Shown: piece after piece, positions 7,572 to 19,090 of the stretch
How the letters are laid out: every line of letters starts with the position of its first letter
How positions within the stretch are numbered: the first letter of the stretch is position 1
Made by a program: the position numbers and the translations under genes
DNA from: Pontibacillus chungwhensis
GTDB taxonomy: Bacteria > Bacillota > Bacilli > Bacillales > BH030062
Assembly (NCBI RefSeq): GCF_030166655.1
Contig: NZ_CP126446.1
Span: forward strand, 1,054,001 to 1,118,000
DNA length: 64,000 bases
Direction of reading: 5' to 3'
Notes under the pieces: generated by a model
The model's database searches: none
What the model was told of the DNA's origin: nothing
Seen by the model: the letters and a program-made list of their open reading frames with translations, nothing else

Positions 7572-9953
7572 ATGGGAGAAAAACATTCGAGGTTACCGAA
7601 AGGGAAGAAAGATATCTTAAAACCAATCCTTACAACAGTTGTGACCACCTTTGTGCTTACGACACCATTTACGTTTACCGTACTAGATGGGGATTCTTCT
7701 TCTTTGATACAAAAGCGGGTTGTCTCTGCTGCTGATGTAAGTGTATTGACAGGAGCTTCTTTATCAGCTACTCAATCAGGCAACCAGATTACGCTAACGT
7801 TATCAGGAGGAGGAGCGGTCGCCCTCAGTTTACTTAACGAGGCAACGGCGTACTACCAATTGCCTCAGGAATTTATTGATGCAGGTCTTGTGAGTCAAGC
7901 GTCTTATAGTGGAGCTTACAGCGTTTCTTTAGTGGGGATCGGCGGAGTATCTTTATTAAATGATAGTGGAAATGTACCTTCTTCCTCTATTTCTGTCAAT
8001 TCAAGCACAGGGGTCGTTTCCTTTGATGTTGGAACCCTTTTAAGCCTTGGTGCTCTCACATCTTTTGATAACAGTACTCAGACGTATAGCTTAACGATTC
8101 AGCTCCCGGAGTTACCAACCTCAGCAGATGGGACTTATACATTCTATGGGCAGGTGTTTGATTCACTCGCTACAGTTAGCTTACTTTCAAGTAGTGGTGC
8201 AACGGCTAGTGTAGCAGCTCCTCAAGCACCAGTAGATAGTGATGGAGATGGGTTAACAGATGAAGAAGAAGGCAACCTCGGAACAGACCCGAATGATGCG
8301 GATAGTGACGATGACGGGATCAATGATGGAGATGAGGTGGAAAATGGAACGGATCCTCTAGACCCAAATGACCCAGGGGACGGAGAGCCAGCAGATAGCG
8401 ATGGGGATGGCCTGACGGATGAAGAAGAAGGCAACCTCGGAACAGATCCAAATGATGGAGATAGTGACGATGACGGGATCAATGATGGAGATGAAGTGGA
8501 AAATGGAACGGATCCTCTAGACCCAAATGACCCAGGGGACGGAGAGCCAGCAGATAGTGATGGAGATGGGTTAACAGATGAAGAAGAAGGCGATCTCGGA
8601 ACAGATCCAAATGATGGAGATAGTGACGATGACGGGATCAATGATGGAGATGAAGTGGAAAATGGAACGGATCCTCTAGACCCAAATGACCCAGGGGACG
8701 GAGAGCCAGCAGATAGTGATGGAGATGGGTTAACAGATGAAGAAGAAGGCGATCTCGGAACAGATCCAAATGATGCGGATAGTGACGATGACGGGGTCAA
8801 TGATGGAGATGAGGTGGAAAATGGAACGGATCCTCTAGACCCAAATGACCCCGGAGATGGAGAGCCAACGGATAGTGATGGGGATGGCCTGACGGATGAA
8901 GAGGAAGGTAACCTCGGAACAGATCCGAATGATGGAGATAGCGACGATGACGGGATTAATGATGGAGATGAGGTAGAGGACGGGACAGATCCTCTTGATC
9001 CCAATGACCCGGATCCAACAGATAGTGATGGAGATGGTCTGACGGATGATGAAGAGCGTGATCTTGGAACGGACCCAAATGATTCAGATACGGACGGGGA
9101 TGGGGTAGACGATGGAGAAGAAATTTTAGATGGAACGGATCCGCTTCGAGAAGACAGTGACGGAGATGAATTGACAGATGGAGAGGAGAAAGCGTTAGGA
9201 ACAGACCCAACTGATCCCGATACAGACGGGGATATCGTCAGTGATGGAGATGAAGTGATGAACGGGACCGATCCATTCCGTACGGATAGTGATGGGGATG
9301 AGTTAGATGACGGGGAGGAACGTTCCCTTGGTACCGACCCAACCGATCCGGATACGGACGGGGACATCGTTAGCGATGGAGGTGAGGTCTTAAACGGCAC
9401 AGACCCACTTGATCCAGACACAGACGGAGATGGTTTGGATGACGGAGAAGAGAGAAGCAGAGGAAGCGATCCACTGGATCCAAATGATCCATTTAACCCC
9501 GAAGAGGATTTGGACGGTGATGGATTGTTGAATAGGGAAGAAGATGAATTGGGAACGGACCGAGAAAATGCAGATACGGACGATGACGGTCTGAACGATG
9601 GAGCCGAAGTCGACATGGGCACAGATCCTTTAAATCCGGACACTGATGGAGACGGAATCTGGGATGGCAATGAATTGGAGTTAGGCACAGACCCGCTAGA
9701 TCCAGATACGGATGGGGATGGCCTATCAGATGGAGATGAAGTGCTTGGATCAGATCCGTTAGACCCGAATGATCCGATCATCTTGGAAGATGAAGAAGAG
9801 CAGGTTCAGGATGATGAAGAGGAATCAAAGGGCGATAAGCTACCAGATACAGCGACCAATTCTTCAAACTGGCTGTTTACAGGCATTAGTGCAGCGCTTC
9901 TTGGCTTGGGAATGAGATTCCGCAAAAAGAAAAAGCCACAAGAAGAGGAATAG
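7572..9953 (+). CDS. Wall-anchored surface protein with calcium-binding (TSP3-like) repeats
   Basis: Protein of 793 residues with RBS GGAGGTG. The N-terminus is basic with a hydrophobic signal (about 15-40). Residues 40-215 form a Ser/Thr-rich beta domain I do not recognise. From residue 222 to about 740 the protein is an unbroken run of thrombospondin type 3-like calcium-binding repeats: [12 protein letters not shown] alternating with [12 protein letters not shown] and [16 protein letters not shown]. The C-terminus is a sortase signal: LPDTA near residue 757, a hydrophobic segment and a KKKK tail. The immediately following gene is a class D sortase, the likely attaching enzyme. The repeats should make a rigid, calcium-stiffened stalk holding the N-terminal domain away from the wall; that is inference. 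Confidence 0.88.
8235..9020 (+). repeat. Tandem 159-bp coding repeats
   Basis: Four units of exactly 159 bp (53 residues) start at 8235, 8394, 8553 and 8712; a fifth shorter unit (150 bp) starts at 8871. Units are nearly identical at the DNA level with a mosaic of shared variants (for example NLGTDP versus DLGTDP, GDSDDD versus ADSDDD), suggesting recent duplication or recombination. More diverged repeats continue to about 9780. Confidence 0.9.
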
Positions 9954-9965
9954 GAGGGGGCACGT

Positions 9966-10655
9966 ATTAAACGACTGGGGGAGATCCTAGCAGTAGCAGG
10001 TTTAGTCATGATTGTGATGGCGATAGCTCAAATGGTTCACCATGAGCGAAGTATTAGCGATTCTCTTGAAGAAGCGAAAGCCCTAATTCGGGAACAAGGA
10101 GTTCAAGCAGGGAAAGACCTCCTCCCGTCAGCTCCTTTAGCAAAAGCGTCTGATCACTCCCAAGCTCTGCAAAAGGAAGAAGGGGAGGAAGAACCAGAAG
10201 GAAAGGGTAACAGTCCTCATCAAGAGGAAGAAGAGAAACCAAACATAAAAACTGAGGAGCATCCACAAGGAGAAGTAATCGGTATACTCGAAATTCCAAG
10301 ACTACAAGCGGAACTTCCTATTGTTGAAGGAACAAGTGCCGATCAGCTCCGGAAAGGGGTAGGGCATTATGCGACCACCCTCTTACCGGGGGAAGGCGGA
10401 CAGATCCTTCTGTCAGGTCACCGAGATACAGTGTTTACAAGAATGGGTGAACTGAAGGAAGGGGATCAGTTTATCGTAAGGACTCGTCAAGGGAGTTATA
10501 CCTATACCTTTACGCGCTCAAAGATAGTGGCTGCAGATGATACGACTGTAATCCGAACTTCGGACCGTGAGGAACTTGTGTTGTCGACGTGCTATCCGTT
10601 CTCGTTTCTTGGGAACGCACCAGATCGGTATGTGATTTATGCTTACCCAATGTAG
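9966..10655 (+). CDS. Class D sortase
   Basis: Transpeptidase that cleaves an LPXTG-type signal and joins the protein to the wall. Catalytic residues are visible: His in LSGHRDT, Cys in LSTCYPF and Arg in APDRYVIY. A Glu/Lys-rich linker separates the N-terminal anchor from the catalytic domain. The first ATG (10008) has no RBS and would cut the anchor short. A strong AGGAGGGGG at 9952-9960 overlaps the previous stop and points to ATT at 9966 (or CTG at 9975), which restores KRLGEILAVAGLVMIVMAIA as a full membrane anchor. I therefore place the start at 9966 as a non-ATG start; a mutated ATG is the alternative. The substrate is probably the LPDTA protein just upstream. Confidence 0.82.
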   Translation: MKRLGEILAVAGLVMIVMAIAQMVHHERSISDSLEEAKALIREQGVQAGKDLLPSAPLAKASDHSQALQKEEGEEEPEGKGNSPHQEEEEKPNIKTEEHPQGEVIGILEIPRLQAELPIVEGTSADQLRKGVGHYATTLLPGEGGQILLSGHRDTVFTRMGELKEGDQFIVRTRQGSYTYTFTRSKIVAADDTTVIRTSDREELVLSTCYPFSFLGNAPDRYVIYAYPM

Positions 10656-10699: not shown

Positions 10700-10732
10700 C
10701 TGCATCATTTCTCCACACCTATTTGATATAAA
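10700..10732 (+). promoter_or_regulatory. 11-bp direct-repeat operator/promoter, site 1
   Basis: CTGCATCATTT (10700) followed in register by CTCCACACCTA (10711), then TATAAA at 10727, exactly 27 bp after the first repeat start. There is no -35 box, so an activator bound to the repeats is likely. Same layout as the sites at 11341, 12345, 17047 and 18694. Confidence 0.65.
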
Positions 10733-10766
10733 GGGACAAGATTATGTAACGAAAAGGAGTGGGAAT

Positions 10767-11309
10767 GTGAAAAAAAGAAAAAGATTGGTATTCCGAACAA
10801 CCCTTTTGCTCTTATTTGCAGCTGCTATTAGCTATGCGGTTGTGCAAAGCTTCTCGGATGGTCGTTCTAAGTTGATCACAGAAGGAGACCAAGCTCCAGA
10901 CTTTACGCTTGAAACATTAGATGGAGAAACGGTTCAGCTAAGTGACTACCGGGGGCAGGGGGTGTTCTTAAATTTTTGGGCTACCTATTGCCCACCTTGC
11001 AAAGAAGAAATGCCTTATATGGAATCACAGTATCAATCTTTTAAGGATGAAGGGGTCCAGGTGATCGCGGTTGATGTTGCAGAGCCCCGCGTGACGGTGA
11101 ATCGGTTTGTAACGAAATATAACCTTTCCTTTCCGATCCCCATGGACTCAAATGAAGAGGTTATGAACGCGTATGGAGTGGGGCCGATTCCGGTCACCTT
11201 TTTGATTAACGAAGATGGTGTGGTGGTGGATCGTATTACAGCCGGTCTAACAGAAGAAGATATAAGAGGGTACATGAAGCAAATTCAACCAGAATCTTAT
11301 CGAGAATAA
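10767..11309 (+). CDS. ResA-like thiol-disulfide oxidoreductase
   Basis: Membrane-tethered thioredoxin-fold protein of 180 residues. The GTG at 10767 follows AAAAGGAGTGGG and starts a basic segment and one transmembrane helix (about 8-27). The extracytoplasmic domain contains the TlpA/ResA features APDFTLETLDGETVQLSDYRG, FLNFWATYC and the redox motif CPPC, then the cis-Pro loop in VGPIPVTFLI. ResA-type proteins reduce disulfides outside the membrane, classically in cytochrome c maturation. Here it heads the copper island and carries the same direct-repeat promoter as the multicopper oxidase, so a role in repairing or reducing thiols oxidised by copper is inferred. No ccdA or res genes are nearby. 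Confidence 0.85.
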   Translation: MKKRKRLVFRTTLLLLFAAAISYAVVQSFSDGRSKLITEGDQAPDFTLETLDGETVQLSDYRGQGVFLNFWATYCPPCKEEMPYMESQYQSFKDEGVQVIAVDVAEPRVTVNRFVTKYNLSFPIPMDSNEEVMNAYGVGPIPVTFLINEDGVVVDRITAGLTEEDIRGYMKQIQPESYRE

Positions 11310-11340
11310 GGTGAAAATGGACACGGGAACGCCACCGTTT

Positions 11341-11373
11341 CTGCACAAATTCTCCACAAAATTCTTTTATAGT
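11341..11373 (+). promoter_or_regulatory. 11-bp direct-repeat operator/promoter, site 2
   Basis: CTGCACAAATT (11341) and CTCCACAAAAT (11352) in tandem, then TATAGT at 11368, 27 bp after the first repeat start. It supports translation of the next gene from 11404, not from the in-frame codon at 11311, which lies upstream of this promoter. Confidence 0.7.
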
Positions 11374-11403
11374 GAAGGAAGGTTTAAGGAAGGAAGGATG
11401 ACG

Positions 11404-12342
11404 ATGATGATTTTTAGAAAAGTAGGAGCTGTATTCTTCTCCGCGACGTTTCTTTTGGCGGCATGTGGACAAGGTGAGGAAGAGAGTAGCACATCTTATA
11501 GAGAGCCCTTTGAAGGAAAAGTCGAACACGTACATGGAGTGGGGTTTGTTGGAGGAGATGATTTAGCACTAGCAGCTCACGATGGATTGAAGTTCTATAG
11601 TGATGGAAACTGCCAGCGCACAACAAGTGAGAACAATGACTACATGGGATTTAATGCAGTGGATAACGGTTTTTATACGAGTGGACATCCAGGGAAGGAT
11701 TCACCTTTACCGAATCCAATAGGAATTCAAAAAAGTAACGATCTTGGCCAAAATTTAGATGCGGTAGCATTTGAAGGAGAATTTGACTTCCACCTCATGG
11801 GGGTAGGCTATGAAAATCATGCGATTTATATATGGAACGAGCACGGGAATGAAGCATTAGAGGAAGGGTTACACAAAAGCCTGGACGAGGGCAAGAGCTT
11901 TGAAGCAGTAGAGAGCAGTGGGGTTAAAGGAGAAATCAAGGATCTAGCAGTCCATCCAACAAATGAAGAAATGATAGCAGTTGCTACGAAACAAGGAATT
12001 TTCCTCTCAGAAGACGGTGGTCAAACGTTTGATGCTCTTTCAGAGAAACCAAATGGAACGTTTGTTTATTTTAAAGAGGATACGCTAACCTATGGTACGT
12101 TCGATAGCCAAGCTCATGTTATTCGATATGCGATAGAGGATCAAAGCTTTGAGGAAATAGCCATTCCTAAATTTGAGCAAGATGCGGTAGCCTATTTTTC
12201 AAGCGATCCGGAAGAGGAGAATCGAATGATGATCTTCTCTTTTAAAAATGATGGCTATTACACAGAAAATGGAGGAAAGAACTGGAGTAAAATAGTCGAT
12301 CAAGGAAAAAGTGAAAGAATAAAACGTGAAGATAACCATTAA
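11404..12342 (+). CDS. F510_1955-family beta-propeller lipoprotein
   Basis: Exported lipoprotein of about 312 residues. The ATG at 11404 has GGAAGG 7 bases upstream; the signal peptide ends in the lipobox LLAAC. The mature protein begins with an HVHGVGF motif and carries Asp-box-like repeats of BNR/sialidase propellers (SEDGGQTFD, ENGGKNWSK), the pattern of the F510_1955-type glycosylhydrolase-like proteins. Such propellers often occur beside copper and redox genes in Bacillaceae; enzymatic activity is not shown. The direct-repeat promoter at 11341 places it in the copper regulon proposed here. Confidence 0.8.
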   Translation: MMIFRKVGAVFFSATFLLAACGQGEEESSTSYREPFEGKVEHVHGVGFVGGDDLALAAHDGLKFYSDGNCQRTTSENNDYMGFNAVDNGFYTSGHPGKDSPLPNPIGIQKSNDLGQNLDAVAFEGEFDFHLMGVGYENHAIYIWNEHGNEALEEGLHKSLDEGKSFEAVESSGVKGEIKDLAVHPTNEEMIAVATKQGIFLSEDGGQTFDALSEKPNGTFVYFKEDTLTYGTFDSQAHVIRYAIEDQSFEEIAIPKFEQDAVAYFSSDPEEENRMMIFSFKNDGYYTENGGKNWSKIVDQGKSERIKREDNH

Positions 12343-12344
12343 GA

Positions 12345-12377
12345 TTGCATAGAATCTGCAAATTTAGTGGTTATTTT
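12345..12377 (+). promoter_or_regulatory. 11-bp direct-repeat operator/promoter, site 3 (weaker)
   Basis: TTGCATAGAAT (12345) and CTGCAAATTTA (12356), then TATTTT at 12372, again 27 bp from the first repeat start. Its sequence match is the poorest of the five. It would drive the two-component system (autoregulation) through a leader of about 170 nt. The leader, 12380-12551, shows no gene or clear structure. Confidence 0.5.
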
Positions 12378-12551
12378 ATTATTGTCAGGTGAGGATGACT
12401 TTAAGGCCAGTGGTTCTGTCGACTTCATAAGTGGTGTCCTGCCAACCAATGTTTATTCTTGGAACGACACGTTGAAATGTATATGATGAAATTGTGGGGG
12501 CTCACCCATCATACGTACTGAGAATAAAGATCAGACAAGCGAGGCGGGCAA

Positions 12552-13940
12552 ATGAATAAATTATCATTTAAATTAGGTGTTTTCATTTTCACCATTATTA
12601 TTTTAGTAGAGGCGATCTTGTTTCTATTTCTATATACGAATTTGGCGAACAGTCGCGAGGAAGAAGTGCTTGAAAACCTGCTGGCAAGAGGAAACAGTCA
12701 CAGAGATGTATTGGAGAAGCGCTTTGATCAGGCTACCCTGAACCACGTAGCCCTGATGGAATCTGAAGCAGAATCCCTTGTGGTCATCACGAACAGGGAT
12801 AAGGAAGTAATTGTTCAATCGGAACCTCTTCAGCCTGAAATTCAGCATCTATTAAATAAGTCGCTTCAAGATGTGAACCATTCAGGAAAAGTGTTAGATG
12901 GACATTGGCGAAGCAGTCAATACGTGGCTACGGTCAGTCCGATCACGCTTGAAGGGGAGATGGCAGGGTATGTGTATATGTTCTCCCCTACCATGGTTGT
13001 TCAACGAGTCATCAATCAGTTATCAAATCAATTCCTTCTTGTTGGGTTCATTGCTTTATTTCTTACAGTACTTGCGATTTTTATCCTAAGCCATTTTATA
13101 ACAAGACCTTTAGTCAGAATGAAGAAAGCGACAGAAGGTTTAATTGAGGGGAAGGATCAAGTTAACCTCCATTACAAGCAAAACGATGAGTTAGGTCAGT
13201 TGGCTCATTCAATTGTTACGTTATCCAACGAACTGAACCGTCTCAAGCAAGACCGGAAAGATTTCTTAGCCAGTATTTCACATGAACTACGAACCCCTCT
13301 TACCTATATCAAAGGGTATTCGAACATAGCGAGTCGCAAAGGCCTCTCTGAGGAAGAGCAGAATCATTATCTTGGTATTATTAAAGAAGAAACGGAACAT
13401 CTCACTCAGCTTGTGAAGAACTTATTTGACCTTGCCAAGATGGACCAAAATGAATTTTCCATTGAGAAGAGTCCGGTTTCCTTATGTGATTTAATGGCTA
13501 AAGTTCATGAGAAAGTGAGGCCGATCTTATCTGAACATGATCTTTCACTTCGCGTTCGTTGTGACGCGAAGGTGGTGGTGAATGTGGATGCAGAGCGCTT
13601 CCAGCAGGTGCTCTTGAATTTACTCGACAACGCGATTAAACATACTCCTGCTCACTCTCATATTGACATGAGTGTTTCTGTGGAAAATGGGAGAGTCGGT
13701 ATTTCTGTTACAGATGAAGGAGAAGGCATCCCTGAGGAGGAATTACCCTACATTTTTGAACGCTTATACAGGGTGGATAAATCGCGCTCGAGAGAATATG
13801 GAGGATCTGGACTTGGGCTTTCCATTGTAAAAGAAATAGTAGAGAAGCATGAAGGAGAAGTAGCTGTGAAGAGTGAGCTTGGGCAAGGAACATCGCTCAC
13901 CATTGTGTTGAAGAAGGAGGATCTACTTACTTATGAGTAA
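12552..13940 (+). CDS. Sensor histidine kinase
   Basis: Membrane-bound kinase of 462 residues. Order: TM1 (about 8-29), an extracytoplasmic sensor of about 130 residues, TM2 (about 162-184), HAMP (185-237), HisKA with phospho-accepting His244 in SISHELRTPL, then HATPase with N box LLNLLDNAIKH, G1 DEGEGIPEEELPYIF and G2 GGSGLGLSIV. It overlaps the response-regulator gene by 8 bases, but the order is kinase first, the reverse of most Bacillus pairs. Its position between copper genes suggests it senses extracytoplasmic copper; no clear His/Met copper site is obvious in the sensor loop, so a redox or envelope signal is also possible. The RBS (GAGGCGGG) is mediocre. Confidence 0.92.
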   Translation: MNKLSFKLGVFIFTIIILVEAILFLFLYTNLANSREEEVLENLLARGNSHRDVLEKRFDQATLNHVALMESEAESLVVITNRDKEVIVQSEPLQPEIQHLLNKSLQDVNHSGKVLDGHWRSSQYVATVSPITLEGEMAGYVYMFSPTMVVQRVINQLSNQFLLVGFIALFLTVLAIFILSHFITRPLVRMKKATEGLIEGKDQVNLHYKQNDELGQLAHSIVTLSNELNRLKQDRKDFLASISHELRTPLTYIKGYSNIASRKGLSEEEQNHYLGIIKEETEHLTQLVKNLFDLAKMDQNEFSIEKSPVSLCDLMAKVHEKVRPILSEHDLSLRVRCDAKVVVNVDAERFQQVLLNLLDNAIKHTPAHSHIDMSVSVENGRVGISVTDEGEGIPEEELPYIFERLYRVDKSRSREYGGSGLGLSIVKEIVEKHEGEVAVKSELGQGTSLTIVLKKEDLLTYE

Positions 13941-14622
13941 TTTATTATTAGTCGATGATGAACAACGAATGCTTGAGTTACTGGAGCTTTATTTATCTCC
14001 TCACGGATACACATGTACAAAGGTGCAATCGGGTAAGGAGGCGATTCGCGCTGTAGAAGATCAGCCGTTCGATTTAATCTTACTAGATGTGATGATGCCA
14101 AAGTACGATGGGTGGAAAACGTGCGAAAACATTCGTGCGATCTCTGAAGTTCCAATTATTATGGTAACAGCCAGGGATCAAAAAACGGATATCGTTAAGG
14201 GCCTAAATATGGGGGCTGACGATTATGTGACGAAGCCCTTTGATGAGGATGAGTTGTTAGCAAGAGTAAATGCACTGCTTAGAAGAACGACGAATGAAGA
14301 TCGAATCGAAGTAGATGGATTAATATGGGACGGGGAGAAATACCAATTAAGTTACCAAGGACACCTCATTCCTGTTACGCCTAAGGAGTTTGCCATGATG
14401 GGCCTTTTAATGAAGAAACCAGATCGTGTATTCAGCCGTGAACACCTGATTGATATGGTTTGGGGCATTAATGCCGAAACAGAAGGGCGAACGATTGATT
14501 CGCACGTGAGGAATATAAGAGAGAAAGTGAGACAAACCGGTTTCCCCATTGATGAATATTTTCAAACCGTTTGGGGAGTTGGGTATAAATGGGTGAAGGG
14601 AAAAGGGAAAGCTGTGCCATGA
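13933..14622 (+). CDS. OmpR-family response regulator
   Basis: Regulator of 229 residues: receiver domain (1-115) with acidic pocket DDE near residue 8, phospho-acceptor Asp52 in LLDVMMP, Thr in MVTARD and Lys in VTKPFD. The C-terminal winged helix (about 125-225) ends GRTIDSHVRNIREKVRQ...WGVGYKW, typical of OmpR/PhoB. PhoB-type regulators bind 11-bp direct repeats just upstream of a -10 box; that arrangement is found before five genes of this island, making this protein the best candidate to bind them. Translation is coupled to the kinase gene. Confidence 0.93.
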   Translation: MSNLLLVDDEQRMLELLELYLSPHGYTCTKVQSGKEAIRAVEDQPFDLILLDVMMPKYDGWKTCENIRAISEVPIIMVTARDQKTDIVKGLNMGADDYVTKPFDEDELLARVNALLRRTTNEDRIEVDGLIWDGEKYQLSYQGHLIPVTPKEFAMMGLLMKKPDRVFSREHLIDMVWGINAETEGRTIDSHVRNIREKVRQTGFPIDEYFQTVWGVGYKWVKGKGKAVP

Positions 14623-14703
14623 TAGCTGGCATAGAACGTAGCGATCGGGCTACGACAATCTTTTATATACCCTGGTAAGTATTTTAAAAAGGAGGAATCA
14701 CTT

Positions 14704-14931
14704 ATGATGAATGGACAAGGAATGGGTGGATTTGGTGGAATGGGATTCACCTGGATGCTTGTAATAGGCATCATTTTTATCGCTGTCGCAATTCTTTTAA
14801 TGAAAGGATTCAATTCGAGTAAACCGAAGCAATCATCCTCCTCACTCGATTCTCTGAAAGAACGGTTAGCTAGAGGAGAAATTTCAGAAGAAGAATACGA
14901 TCGTTTAAAAAAGAAACTAGAGGAACACTAA
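14704..14931 (+). CDS. SHOCT-domain small membrane protein
   Basis: Protein of 75 residues. The N-terminus is Gly/Met-rich (MMNGQGMGGFGGMGF), followed by one transmembrane helix (about 17-34), a Ser-rich linker and a C-terminal SHOCT motif (SLKERLARGEISEEEYDRLKKKL). SHOCT domains are short oligomerisation modules. RBS AAAGGAGG. It lies between the two-component system and the copper ATPase gene with 33 bases to the latter, so the two are probably co-transcribed. The Met-rich start could bind copper; that is speculative. Before it, CGTAGC-N5/6-GCTACG (about 14636-14653) forms a small hairpin. Confidence 0.82.
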   Translation: MMNGQGMGGFGGMGFTWMLVIGIIFIAVAILLMKGFNSSKPKQSSSSLDSLKERLARGEISEEEYDRLKKKLEEH

Positions 14932-14964
14932 GATCAAAATGACTTACATGTGGAGGGGTAAAGT

Positions 14965-16977
14965 ATGGAGCACGAACATCACCAACATGAACATGAAGAA
15001 CACGATCATGGAGATCACGAAGGCCATGATCATCACGATCATGGGGCGATGGTTGAAGATTTCAAAAAACGTTTCTATATTTCTTTAGTCGCTACCATCC
15101 CCATCTTACTCTTGTCACCCATGATTCAAGACTTTATCGGATTTGATTGGACATTTCCTTACGATCAATATGTATTATTTCTGTTAGCTACATTTGTTTT
15201 CTTCTATGGTGGGTGGCCGTTTCTTACAGGGGCCAAAGACGAGCTAAAGCAAAAGAGTCCAGGCATGATGACACTTATTGGTCTGGCCATAGCGGTTGCT
15301 TATCTTTATAGCTCACTAGTGGTCTTTGGACTCCAGGGGCGAAACTTCTTCTGGGAACTAGCCACTCTCGTCGACATTATGCTACTTGGCCATTGGATTG
15401 AGATGAAATCTGTTATGGGAGCATCCAATGCGTTAGAAGAATTAGTCAAGCTAATGCCAAATGAGGCTCACAAGGTCGACCAAGATGGAAATGTTGAAGA
15501 TGTAGAAGTTTCCAAGCTACAAGAAGGAGATCATGTACTAGTCAAACCAGGTGAGAAAATACCAGTAGATGGGCAGATCATTGATGGGAAGACAACCATA
15601 GATGAATCCATGCTCACAGGAGAATCGGTACCTGTTGAGAAGGGTGAAGGAGAAGAGGCAATTGGTGGTGCCGTGAATCAGGAAGGGTCTGTGACGATTA
15701 GCGTTGAGAAGACCGGAGATGACACGTATTTATCCCAAGTCATACAATTAGTGAAAGAAGCGCAGGACTCCAAATCGAAAACTCAGGACATTTCCAACCG
15801 AGCCGCGAAATGGTTGTTTTACTTAGCGCTTGGAAGCGGACTACTTACATTTATCATTTGGTTAGCACTTGGTTTTCCACTTGATGTTGCAATGGAGCGC
15901 ATGGTGACCGTCATGGTTATTACCTGCCCCCATGCGTTAGGATTAGCGGCTCCGTTAGTTGTAGCTGTTTCAACGTCGATTTCAGCGAAAAAGGGACTCT
16001 TAATTCGTAATCGTGCCAACTTTGAAGGTGCAAGGCAGTTGAATGCGGTTGTATTTGATAAGACAGGTACACTAACAAAAGGAGAGTTTGGAGTAACCGA
16101 TATTATTCCAGTAGAAGGCCACGAAGAACAAGAAGTGCTACAATGGGCTGCTTCTTTGGAACAAAACTCTGAACACCCCCTTGCAGCCGGAATCGTAGAA
16201 AAGGCAAAGAAGGATTCTGTATCTTTAAAGTCAATCGAAGAATTTGAATCGTTGACCGGCAAAGGATTGAGGGGCACTGTAGATGGACATGAAGTGAATG
16301 TAGTGAGTCCAGGCTTTGTGGATGATCGGGGCTATACCTATGATCAGCAGGTTTTTGCTGACCTTTCTGAAGAAGGGAAAACAGTTGTCTTTGTCGTTGT
16401 AAATGAAGAGCTGTTCGGAATGATTGCACTAGCGGATATCGTAAGAGAGGATGCTAAAGAAGCCATAGACGCCCTGAAGGAATTGGATGTCCACTCCATA
16501 ATGCTTACTGGAGACAATCAAAAAGTGGCAGACTGGGTTGCCAACCAGTTAGGAATAGATGAGGTGTACGCAGAAGTTCTGCCAGACCAGAAAGCGGAAC
16601 AGGTGAAAAAGATCAAAGAAAAAGGATGGAAAGTGGCCATGACAGGAGACGGGGTAAATGATGCCCCAGCCTTAGCTACGGCGGATCTTGGCGTTGCCAT
16701 TGGCACAGGAACAGATGTCGCAATGGAATCAGCCGATATTGTTCTAGTTAAAAGCAATCCGAAAGATGTCCTTTCCATAATGGAACTATCAAAGAAAACC
16801 TACAGAAAAATGATTCAGAATCTTTGGTGGGCGGCTGGGTATAATATTCTGGCCATTCCGTTAGCGGCCGGCGTTCTTGCCCCAATAGGCGTTATTTTAA
16901 GTCCGGCAGTAGGAGCGGTATTAATGAGTCTGAGTACGGTTGTGGTAGCGGTAAACGCTAAATTATTAAAAGCTTAA
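14965..16977 (+). CDS. copB: CopB-type copper-translocating P-type ATPase
   Basis: P1B ATPase of 670 residues. It has no CxxC metal-binding domain; the first 30 residues are a His/Asp/Glu-rich tail, characteristic of CopB. The intramembrane motif is CPH (Cys321-Pro-His), which defines the P1B-3/CopB group associated with Cu(II) or Ag export, distinct from the CPC of CopA. Other hallmarks: TGES actuator loop, phosphorylated Asp365 in DKTGTLT, HP motif in SEHPLA, and GDGVNDAP in the hinge. Eight membrane helices are expected. It exports copper from the cytoplasm, complementing the multicopper oxidase outside. Confidence 0.94.
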   Translation: MEHEHHQHEHEEHDHGDHEGHDHHDHGAMVEDFKKRFYISLVATIPILLLSPMIQDFIGFDWTFPYDQYVLFLLATFVFFYGGWPFLTGAKDELKQKSPGMMTLIGLAIAVAYLYSSLVVFGLQGRNFFWELATLVDIMLLGHWIEMKSVMGASNALEELVKLMPNEAHKVDQDGNVEDVEVSKLQEGDHVLVKPGEKIPVDGQIIDGKTTIDESMLTGESVPVEKGEGEEAIGGAVNQEGSVTISVEKTGDDTYLSQVIQLVKEAQDSKSKTQDISNRAAKWLFYLALGSGLLTFIIWLALGFPLDVAMERMVTVMVITCPHALGLAAPLVVAVSTSISAKKGLLIRNRANFEGARQLNAVVFDKTGTLTKGEFGVTDIIPVEGHEEQEVLQWAASLEQNSEHPLAAGIVEKAKKDSVSLKSIEEFESLTGKGLRGTVDGHEVNVVSPGFVDDRGYTYDQQVFADLSEEGKTVVFVVVNEELFGMIALADIVREDAKEAIDALKELDVHSIMLTGDNQKVADWVANQLGIDEVYAEVLPDQKAEQVKKIKEKGWKVAMTGDGVNDAPALATADLGVAIGTGTDVAMESADIVLVKSNPKDVLSIMELSKKTYRKMIQNLWWAAGYNILAIPLAAGVLAPIGVILSPAVGAVLMSLSTVVVAVNAKLLKA

Positions 16978-16987
16978 ATCTCAACAA

Positions 16988-17014
16988 AGCCAGGGTGTAA
17001 AGCCCTGGCTTTTT
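16988..17014 (+). terminator. Rho-independent terminator
   Basis: AGCCAGGG, a short loop, CCCTGGCT and five T after copB. Confidence 0.88.
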
Positions 17015-17046
17015 ATATGATCATGTTCTTTTAATCTTCAAAGAAT

Positions 17047-17079
17047 CTGCACGTTTCTTGCACATTTCTCGGATATAGT
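17047..17079 (+). promoter_or_regulatory. 11-bp direct-repeat operator/promoter, site 4
   Basis: CTGCACGTTTC (17047) and TTGCACATTTC (17058) in tandem, then TATAGT at 17074, 27 bp from the first repeat start; no -35 box. Confidence 0.72.
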
Positions 17080-17122
17080 ACGCCTAGGGGTACATAAAAG
17101 TAACTAAGAAAGGATGAAGGAT

Positions 17123-18622
17123 ATGAAGAAAATGGTGATCTCCCTTTTACTTGGAGCCGGAGTTCTGTTGATTGGAATCTGGGGAGTCATGCAATTCCAA
17201 GATGGATCAGGGGAGAGTACGGCCTCGGTCCTTAATGAAGCCAAAGGCGAAAGCATCACGGACCTTAAAGGGGACGATGCAAAAGGTCATCCTATTAAGA
17301 AATTTGATATAACAGCTTCAAAGAAACAATGGAACATTAATTCAAGCACTAGTGTCGAAGCATGGACGTATAATCAATCTGTTCCCGGGAAGGAACTGCG
17401 AGTGCAGGAAGGGGACTATGTAAAAGTTCATTTAAAGAATAACTTGGATGTACCTGTAACGATCCATTGGCATGGTGTATTGCTGCCAAACAAAATGGAC
17501 GGCGTACCAGGGGTAACACAAGATGCGGTACTGCCAGGGGAAGAGTTTACGTACGAGTTTCTGGCAGATCATCCGGGCACCTACTGGTATCACTCTCACC
17601 AGCATAGCTCAAAGCAAGTAGACAAAGGATTGTATGGGGCCTTTATTGTGGAGAAAGAGAAGCCAGACTATGCCATCGATCAGGCGTTTATTGTAGATGA
17701 ATGGGCCGTGTATGAAGATAAGCAAAGCCTCACCAATATGGGCAGTATGATGACAGGTGGAATGTCCGGGGACGGTGAAGCTGACACAAAAGCGATGTAT
17801 GATACAGTGACCATCAATGGGAAGAATGGGGAAGCTGTAAAGCCTTTAGATATACAAGAAGGAGAGAAAGCAAGACTACGGTTTATAAATGCCGGCTACC
17901 AGACGCACTATGTTCAATTCCCGAATCAAATGCGAGTTATCGCAGTCGACGGAGACAAAGTGAAAAGTGAGGAGAAGAGCTCTGAATTAGAGATTGCTCC
18001 AGGTGAAAGAATCGATGTGGAGTGGACGAATGAAGGCAATGCCATACGTTTATTATCACAGTCAGAGGAAGTCGATGATGTGACCATTCCTCTAGGCAAC
18101 CAAGAGTCATCAACTAGTTCGTTGGCAAGAGATGAGGGAAGGACTGTGAGTGGAACGAGTTATGAAAGTGAAGAGTTGTTGTTCAAAGACATTCCACAGA
18201 ATCCTGACGTCACCTATAAGATGAACCTAAACATGGGAATGAACATGGGTGAAGGAATGGTGTTTCAGATCAACGAGGACACCTTCCCCGATACGCCTCC
18301 TATTAAAGTAAAAGAAGGGGACTTGGTGAAAGTAGAACTTAAAAATACAGGAATGTTGAATCACCCCATGCACTTACATGGCCATAAGTTTCAGGTCGTC
18401 TCTAAAGACGGAAGAAAGCTAGAAAAGCCAATCGTGAAAGACTTACTGAATGTAAAACCAGGAGAGACCTATGAAATCTATTTCAAAGCTGATAACAAAG
18501 GAGAATGGCTCTTCCATTGTCATGACAATAACCATGCAGACCGTGGAATGATTACCATTGTAGATTACAAAAGCGTCTACTCTCCATTTAAGTTTGGAGA
18601 AGCTTCCAAAAATACACCTTAA
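17123..18622 (+). CDS. Exported multicopper oxidase
   Basis: Laccase/CueO-like oxidase of 499 residues. The ATG at 17123 fits the RBS better than the ATG at 17114, which touches it. An N-terminal hydrophobic segment (about 5-24) is a signal or anchor. Copper ligands are all present: HWHG and HSHQHSS in the first cupredoxin domain, HPMHLHGH and HCHDNNHADRGM in the last, giving type 1 Cys/His and the type 2/3 cluster. Such enzymes oxidise Cu(I) to less toxic Cu(II) outside the cell. Met-rich runs (MGSMMTGGMSG and MNLNMGMNMGEGM) resemble the Met-rich inserts of copper-resistance oxidases. Monocistronic behind direct-repeat site 4. Confidence 0.93.
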   Translation: MKKMVISLLLGAGVLLIGIWGVMQFQDGSGESTASVLNEAKGESITDLKGDDAKGHPIKKFDITASKKQWNINSSTSVEAWTYNQSVPGKELRVQEGDYVKVHLKNNLDVPVTIHWHGVLLPNKMDGVPGVTQDAVLPGEEFTYEFLADHPGTYWYHSHQHSSKQVDKGLYGAFIVEKEKPDYAIDQAFIVDEWAVYEDKQSLTNMGSMMTGGMSGDGEADTKAMYDTVTINGKNGEAVKPLDIQEGEKARLRFINAGYQTHYVQFPNQMRVIAVDGDKVKSEEKSSELEIAPGERIDVEWTNEGNAIRLLSQSEEVDDVTIPLGNQESSTSSLARDEGRTVSGTSYESEELLFKDIPQNPDVTYKMNLNMGMNMGEGMVFQINEDTFPDTPPIKVKEGDLVKVELKNTGMLNHPMHLHGHKFQVVSKDGRKLEKPIVKDLLNVKPGETYEIYFKADNKGEWLFHCHDNNHADRGMITIVDYKSVYSPFKFGEASKNTP

Positions 18623-18693
18623 CATTGTCCTGATAAGTAAATGATAAACTGCGGAAGCTCTGAAACTGGAATATTAATCCTTGAATTTAAAAA

Positions 18694-18726
18694 CTGCACA
18701 AGATCTGCACATTATCTGGGCATAAC
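18694..18726 (+). promoter_or_regulatory. 11-bp direct-repeat operator/promoter, site 5
   Basis: Three repeats in register: CTGCACAAGAT (18694), CTGCACATTAT (18705) and CTGGGCATAAC (18716). The expected -10 position (27 bp in) reads CATAAC. This is the clearest copy of the repeat. Confidence 0.72.
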
Positions 18727-18757: not shown

Positions 18758-19090
18758 ATGATGGCACACCAGACCCATCCAGAAGCGATTAAAGCATTGC
18801 ATGAGTGCATGGAGGCTTGTAACCATTGTTATGATGCATGCCTGAAAGAAGAAGATTTAAACAGTATGAGAGACTGTGTTCGCCTTGATCGTGAGTGTGC
18901 AGATATTTGTGCGTACTTAGAACAAGCGATTACAAGAGGGACTCCGTTCGTAGCAGAATTAGCACAAGCGTGTGCGACCATCTGTGAGCGTTGCGGTGAA
19001 GAGTGTAAAAAGCACGATCATAAGCATTGCCAAGATTGTGCAGATGCATGTTTCAATTGTGCAGAAGCTTGTAAGAAATTAATCGCATAA
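18758..19090 (+). CDS. Cys-rich four-helix-bundle copper-binding protein (DUF326/Csp-like)
   Basis: Protein of 110 residues with 16 cysteines, mostly in CxxxC and CxxC spacing along predicted helices (ECMEAC, HCYDAC, RDCVRLDREC, CATICERC, CQDCADACFNCAEAC). This is the signature of DUF326 and the Csp copper-storage proteins, whose Cys-lined bundle binds many Cu(I) ions. No signal peptide, so a cytosolic store (Csp3-like) is likely. RBS AAAGGAG; ATG at 18758 (18761 also possible). It has its own direct-repeat promoter, and is closed by a terminator. It ends the copper island. Confidence 0.9.
   Translation: MMAHQTHPEAIKALHECMEACNHCYDACLKEEDLNSMRDCVRLDRECADICAYLEQAITRGTPFVAELAQACATICERCGEECKKHDHKHCQDCADACFNCAEACKKLIA

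Follow-up and report, generated by a model that had tools for sequence, protein, structure and literature searches.

Five promoters of a copper-defence island in Pontibacillus chungwhensis share one tandem 11-bp repeat, of the type YTSCAYA-N4, set a constant distance before the −10 position. The island occupies 10.7–19.1 kb of a 64-kb stretch of the 4.17-Mb genome (contig NZ_CP126446.1, positions 1,054,001 to 1,118,000), which is referred to here as the window and in whose numbering positions are given. Sequence comparison indicates that the island's own response regulator very probably uses the repeats as its operators. This protein of the LcoR branch would act as a copper-sensing, PhoB-like activator, and it is favoured as the ligand because the same arrangement recurs before copper and copper-sensor genes in relatives. 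Here, we describe the five sites and their recurrence in other Bacilli, and then weigh the assignment against other explanations and compare the system with known ones.

Five proposed operator-promoters with a common geometry

The repeats start at 10700, 11341, 12345, 17047 and 18694, all on the forward strand, and stand, at the claimed spacing, before all five genes named in a preliminary description of this DNA. Operator-promoter 1 (10700..10732, CTGCATC-attt-CTCCACA, −10 hexamer TATAAA at 10727) lies 5′ of a ResA-like gene; in three loci of congeners (L051, L052 and L054), resA is likewise preceded by a counterpart, though a weaker one. Operator-promoter 2 (11341..11373, CTGCACA-aatt-CTCCACA, −10 TATAGT at 11368) precedes the gene for an F510_1955 lipoprotein, as it does in L050–L053. 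Operator-promoter 3 (12345..12377, TTGCATA-gaat-CTGCAAA, TATTTT at 12372) lies inside a terminator hairpin upstream of the kinase and regulator genes, with counterparts in L050, L051, L054 and L055, and operator-promoter 4 (17047..17079, CTGCACG-tttc-TTGCACA, −10 TATAGT at 17074) precedes a multicopper oxidase gene, with counterparts in L050–L052 and L054. Operator-promoter 5 (18694..18726, CTGCACA-agat-CTGCACA, with a third partial repeat, CTGGGCA, and CATAAC at 18721) stands before the gene for a Cys-rich copper-storage-like protein (Csp). When each site was scored with a matrix built from the other four, over both strands of the window with a margin of about 25 bp around each of the five excluded, sites 1–5 were equalled or beaten by 0, 0, 2, 2 and 0 other positions, respectively. 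Autocorrelation over upstream regions also gave a signal at spacing 11, yet stronger ones at 9 and 18 bp, and was replaced by the matrix and de novo tests described here and below.

The preliminary description had placed the −10 hexamer exactly 27 bp after the first base of the first repeat, and this stands in part. A hexamer is present at +27 in all five sites, with 5, 5, 4, 5 and 4 of 6 matches to TATAAT at sites 1–5, but only sites 2–4 (3/5) have the form TANNNT, which occurs at 1.5% of window positions; site 1 has TATAAA, one letter from TATAAT, the CATAAC of site 5 is weak, and the TATTTT of site 3 is the U-tract of the terminator. The absence of a −35 box, claimed for the five promoters, is borne out both there, where at most 3/6 matches to TTGACA are found at spacers of 16–18, and in relatives, where none of 68 distinct sites has at least four TTGACA matches at spacers of 15–19, compared with 23% of shuffles, so that −35 matches in relatives' sites are rarer than the shuffled expectation. 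The fixed geometry without a −35 hexamer, together with the OmpR/PhoB-type regulator in the cluster, supports the proposed PhoB/OmpR layout, in which an activator replaces the −35 contacts.

Two of the promoters depart from the simple pattern. Site 3 is embedded in an intrinsic terminator hairpin (12325–12390, −20 kcal/mol, z −4.9), and operator, −10 and terminator occupy common bases. It stands 207 bp before the kinase gene because an intervening DsbD_2 (CcdA/TauE-like) gene has been lost here: in two close relatives (L050 and L051) an intact DsbD_2 gene directly follows the site, both ends of a remnant at 12378..12551 (forward strand) align with the surroundings of that intact gene, and the relatives' DsbD_2 protein had no match in the P. 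chungwhensis genome at E 1e-5 in a search run without a positive control. The promoter preceding the remnant is retained. At the Csp promoter, CATAAC lacks the first and last T of TATAAT; among congeners it is kept in two and is CACAAC or AACACA/AACACC in four, and TANNNT occurs at +27 in 0/7 of the Csp promoters compared (the window and L050–L055). Given these hexamers and the third partial repeat, the position of the Csp −10 has to be regarded as uncertain. A different arrangement is seen in L095, where two identical repeat pairs on the minus strand (first bases 11535 and 12044), with TTTAGG at +27, lie some 60 bp ahead of a tandem pair of Csp-like genes (11595–11918 and 12104–12427) on the opposite, plus strand.

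Recurrence in relatives and on plasmids

The comparison covered 53 stretches, of which seven belong to Pontibacillus and the remaining 46 represent 29 further families (hand count), and a kinase query of a genome collection yielded 11 loci, of which four were used as relatives; copper genes recurrently adjoin the kinase gene in the compared loci. A repeat matrix built from the window's own sites was applied to the 46 loci from outside Pontibacillus. At a threshold of 14, it gave 88 matches at spacing 11, versus 4–25 when the spacing was changed and 7 when the matrix was reversed, and TANNNT was found at +27 in 58 of 85 unique matches, with 0–7 at any other offset from 18 to 37. At a threshold of 12, 70 sites with TANNNT at exactly +27 were recovered, spread over 36 of the 46 loci, while the controls gave 0–5 (other repeat spacings), 0–9 (other −10 offsets, 20–35) and 0 (reversed matrix); the 70 sites represent 68 distinct sequences, two pairs being overlapping registers of a triple repeat. 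Enrichment of the motif at −10-linked positions in orthologous loci, which the preliminary description had named in advance as a test, was found. In a de novo search of 46 kinase/regulator promoters, TCTGCA at 11-bp spacing ranked first among hexamers with at least two G/C (12/46), compared with 4–6 in ten shuffles and 9 for the best such hexamer at other spacings (8–15).

The gene following the 70 sites encodes the kinase in 15 cases and the regulator in two, and otherwise a DUF1541 protein (12), a multicopper oxidase (10), DsbD_2 (9), F510 (4), ResA (2), CueP (2), a PCYCGC protein (1) or a SHOCT protein (1), with other or no genes at the remaining 12. This gene content, like that of the island, supports the earlier suggestion of a regulon centred on copper and extracytoplasmic thiol chemistry. 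Three of the 12 other downstream genes (in L068, L087 and L100) encode CWB2-domain proteins above the Pfam cut-off. CWB2-domain proteins with lipoprotein-like N-termini lie behind operator-like sites at L068:10482-11705, L087:7705-8919, L100:13260-14561 and L063:7389-8696, the L063 site having TAAAAC rather than TANNNT at +27, and are possible new copper proteins.

At the level of whole genomes, 397 members of the order were sampled, and 164 of them have a kinase match at E 1e-95 or better. The repeat pattern with at most one mismatch is found 151 times in these 164 genomes (control 32), and it is more frequent in kinase-bearing than in kinase-free genomes (Mann–Whitney p = 5e-6). In P. chungwhensis itself, 30 of 53 matches were inspected, and TANNNT stands at +27 in two, both of them island sites (L104 and L105); the resA site (L121, TATAAA) and the Csp site (L106, CATAAC) are among the same 30, and the oxidase site, with two mismatches to the genome-wide pattern, falls outside the 53. 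The regulator's targets in this genome appear to be confined to the island. A degenerate-pattern genome scan for further targets was rejected, its counts being near the reversed control.

The arrangement is also found on plasmids. A tblastn search against 72,556 plasmids gave 36 records, 12 of them labelled Lactococcus. In the 13.4 kb examined of plasmid pNZ712 (KX138409), which carries the same two protein accessions as the Lactococcus kinase/regulator pair compared with ours, a stringent repeat pattern has one match, which lies 34 bp past lcoS and 150 bp ahead of lgt and has TATAAT at +27; the best matrix match has the same place in three other Lactococcus stretches, in Latilactobacillus sakei and in Lactiplantibacillus plantarum. 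Sites are located before the kinase and oxidase genes on a Priestia megaterium plasmid, before F510_1955 and a TauE/SafE gene on Bacillus methanolicus pBM69, and before ydhK and a TauE/SafE gene, with none before the kinase gene, on a Planococcus lenghuensis plasmid. In L135 (7552–8578, Lactococcus) and L138 (7469–8764, Latilactobacillus), the gene behind the operator encodes a prolipoprotein diacylglyceryl transferase, with DUF2933 further downstream. The position before lgt in Lactococcus and Latilactobacillus hints that copper control is tied to lipoprotein maturation.

The regulator and competing explanations

The regulator is 55% identical over 222 residues to LcoR of a Lactococcus plasmid, with closely similar C-terminal stretches, and the kinase is 38% identical over 452 residues to the plasmid-encoded LcoS; judged by these identities, the system is of the known LcoRS kind. 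PMC5152845 states that lcoRS regulate lcoABC, that NCDO712, the carrier of pNZ712, was the sole tested strain growing in up to 4 mM copper sulfate, and that its copper resistance is ascribed to lcoRSABC and/or an ATPase gene; its reference list includes a paper in Gene (1999) about transcription that lcoRS render copper-inducible. The motif is located before the kinase or regulator gene in 17 of the 70 sites and, in Lactococcus, before the operon adjacent to lcoRS, which supports the island's OmpR-family regulator as the likely ligand, as the preliminary description had proposed. In the kinase, H50, M69, E70, W119 and M143 are found in 54/54 aligned sequences and H65 in 98%, and all six are retained in the Lactococcus kinase; the conserved His and Met residues may ligate copper. 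A structure model of the sensor (predicted local distance difference test score 80.6, five sequences) has a PAS-like domain between two long helices, and its nearest library structures, WalK and other PAS/Cache sensors, say little about the ligand.

In P. chungwhensis, we infer that copper outside the membrane would be sensed by the kinase via His and Met residues conserved in its extracytoplasmic, PAS-like domain, and that the phosphorylated regulator would bind head-to-tail on two, sometimes three, 11-bp half-sites, the first base of the first half-site being 27 bp before the −10. It would thereby occupy the place of sigma's −35 contact and recruit RNA polymerase, as PhoB does. The activated genes would include those of the system itself as well as genes for extracytoplasmic copper handling (oxidase, storage protein and copper lipoproteins) and for thiol redox (ResA and, in relatives, DsbD_2).

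Several points weigh against this assignment. The half-sites are variable (CTGCACA, CTCCACA, TTGCATA and CTTCATA), which makes some site calls uncertain, and among the window's own sites, that of Csp has a weak −10, that of resA has TATAAA, and site 3 shares bases with a terminator. The matrix was derived from the window's own sites, the loci are related by descent and not independent, their selection by kinase homology makes the enrichment near the kinase partly a product of selection, and downstream genes were chosen heuristically and took their names from resemblance to a small set of references. At the threshold, ten of the 46 loci lack a site, and the de novo search ranks hexamers rich in A/T (TTTTTT, 18) above TCTGCA at 11-bp spacing. 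Genomes scored as kinase-free still show an excess of the pattern (112 matches in 233 genomes, control 63), which might come from kinases of greater divergence or from matches recurring in coding sequence, and the P. chungwhensis genome has 53 matches versus 48 for the reversed control at one mismatch, and 144 versus 130 at two. Finally, CusS is absent from the 50 structure matches listed for the sensor model, the best of which are WalK and PAS/Cache domains.

One alternative explanation is mixed control, with activation by the regulator and repression of a subset of the promoters by CsoR; the oxidase promoter, at least, would be repressed via a palindrome by the −10. The preliminary description had stated that the regulon is not controlled by CsoR, and this is unsupported: the genome has two CsoR-family genes, one of which, in a locus separate from the island (L133), is followed by a gene for an ATPase with two CxxC metal-binding stretches (from translation), and a CsoR-like palindrome, GTACGCCTAGGGGTAC (17078..17093, forward strand), adjoins operator-promoter 4 and the oxidase −10. 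Its outline, TACG...GGGTA, is kept in four aligned Pontibacillus oxidase promoters, the genome's own csoR promoter has ATACTTAACGGGGGTAT, and comparable Staphylococcus aureus CsoR operators, ATACCtataGGGGGTAC and ATACCctggGTGGGTAT, are reported in PMC5947656. The oxidase palindrome is, however, one base shorter than these operators and than the csoR-promoter element, and the degenerate CsoR pattern, whose sole place in the window is the oxidase promoter (once per strand), is not improbable by chance, a mean of 0.83 being expected and 22/100 shuffles reaching 2. We consider mixed control unlikely.

A second explanation is that another OmpR-family regulator, of the ResD, PhoP or WalR type, binds the repeats and that the island's regulator acts elsewhere. 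The sites of such regulators have TTCACA-like half-sites, which the present half-site resembles, ResA is a ResD target in Bacillus subtilis, and the motif excess in kinase-free genomes fits this view. It is nevertheless highly improbable, as the motif recurs from genus to genus at promoters of this kinase/regulator pair, is commoner in kinase-bearing genomes and is located beside lcoRS on Lactococcus plasmids. That the repeats are functionless products of chance or composition is scarcely credible: the own-genome counts (53 versus 48) do mean that lone short matches prove little, but the exact +27 geometry, the spacing specificity, the gene context and the recurrence in 36/46 loci all speak against it.

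The island and related systems

The island genes all lie on the forward strand. A ResA-like thiol-disulfide oxidoreductase (10767..11309; NCBIfam NF002854 ResA, 241.7 bits, cut-off 170) and a propeller lipoprotein of the F510_1955 family (11404..12342; NCBIfam NF045728, 251.5 bits, cut-off 175) are followed by the LcoS-like sensor histidine kinase (12552..13940), with two membrane helices and the six near-invariant residues between them, and the LcoR-like OmpR/PhoB-family response regulator (13933..14622; Response_reg PF00072 and Trans_reg_C PF00486). The nearest named relatives of the kinase are those of P. chungwhensis (83%) and P. salipaludis (81%). Next come a SHOCT-domain small membrane protein (14704..14931; PF09851) and a copper-translocating P1B ATPase (14965..16977; TIGR01511, 643 bits, cut-off 397), for which the repeat-matrix scan of the window gave no separate operator, and then the multicopper oxidase (17123..18622; Pfam Cu-oxidase, Cu-oxidase_2 and Cu-oxidase_3) and the four-helix-bundle Csp/DUF326 protein (18761..19090; PF03860, 38.4 bits, cut-off 20.4), which reaches 51.5 bits with TIGR04401, under the cut-off of 100. 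Directly 5′ of the island (7572–10655) lies the gene for a 793-aa acidic surface protein that carries DxDxDG-type repeats and, at its C terminus, an LPDTATN motif; a class D sortase, LPxTATN-specific according to its NCBIfam model, comes next.

Accounts of copper control in Bacilli usually centre on CsoR and CopY, and an operator that can be recognised for a sensor of extracytoplasmic copper provides a handle on a second layer of control. No description of this operator in Bacilli was found in the open-access literature searched, and, within that literature, neither the operator code nor how widely it is distributed in Bacilli seems to have been described. We lean, with some reserve, towards a single rigid, −35-less copper regulon spread across Bacilli on chromosomes and plasmids, which would couple extracytoplasmic copper handling with thiol reduction (ResA and DsbD_2) and, in lactic acid bacteria, with lipoprotein maturation (Lgt), and in which the operator alone would predict a copper function for F510_1955, CWB2-domain and PCYCGC lipoproteins. 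The operator assigns candidate copper functions to such uncharacterised lipoproteins, and the compact promoter with its spacing rule is open to reporter testing.

The closest known system is LcoRS-lcoABC of the Lactococcus lactis plasmids pND306 and pNZ712, which has a homologous kinase and regulator, a clustered multicopper oxidase and the same repeat, with the −10 at +27, before the downstream operon; it differs in the order of regulator and kinase, in downstream genes that start with lgt and DUF2933, and in being plasmid-borne. The pho boxes of PhoB and PhoP likewise have an 11-bp period and replace the −35, whereas their half-site, signal and gene set differ. As described in PMC4415409, effector domains bind direct repeats in head-to-tail tandem. 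CopRS of Corynebacterium glutamicum is copper-responsive, and its DNA-binding response regulator activates an oxidase and the CopB ATPase from an operator, TGAAGATTTgaTGAAGATTT, that is an 11-bp direct repeat tested by electrophoretic mobility shift assay and mutation; in contrast to the present system, a single site is reported in that genome, and the text consulted gives no constant distance to a −10 (PMC3140484). In the reverse complement of TGAAGATTTgaTGAAGATTT, two copies of TCTTCA stand 11 bp apart and come close to variants in the present sites. CusRS of Escherichia coli likewise senses periplasmic copper through a two-component system, for which His, Phe and Met residues are named as metal ligands (PMC10100754), but belongs to a different cluster. 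In S. aureus, the repressor CsoR controls a regulon that includes copXL, encoding a P1B ATPase and the copper-resistance lipoprotein CopL, of which DUF1541 is a domain, in response to copper (PMC5947656), whereas in the relatives studied here 12 of the 70 repeat operators precede DUF1541 genes.

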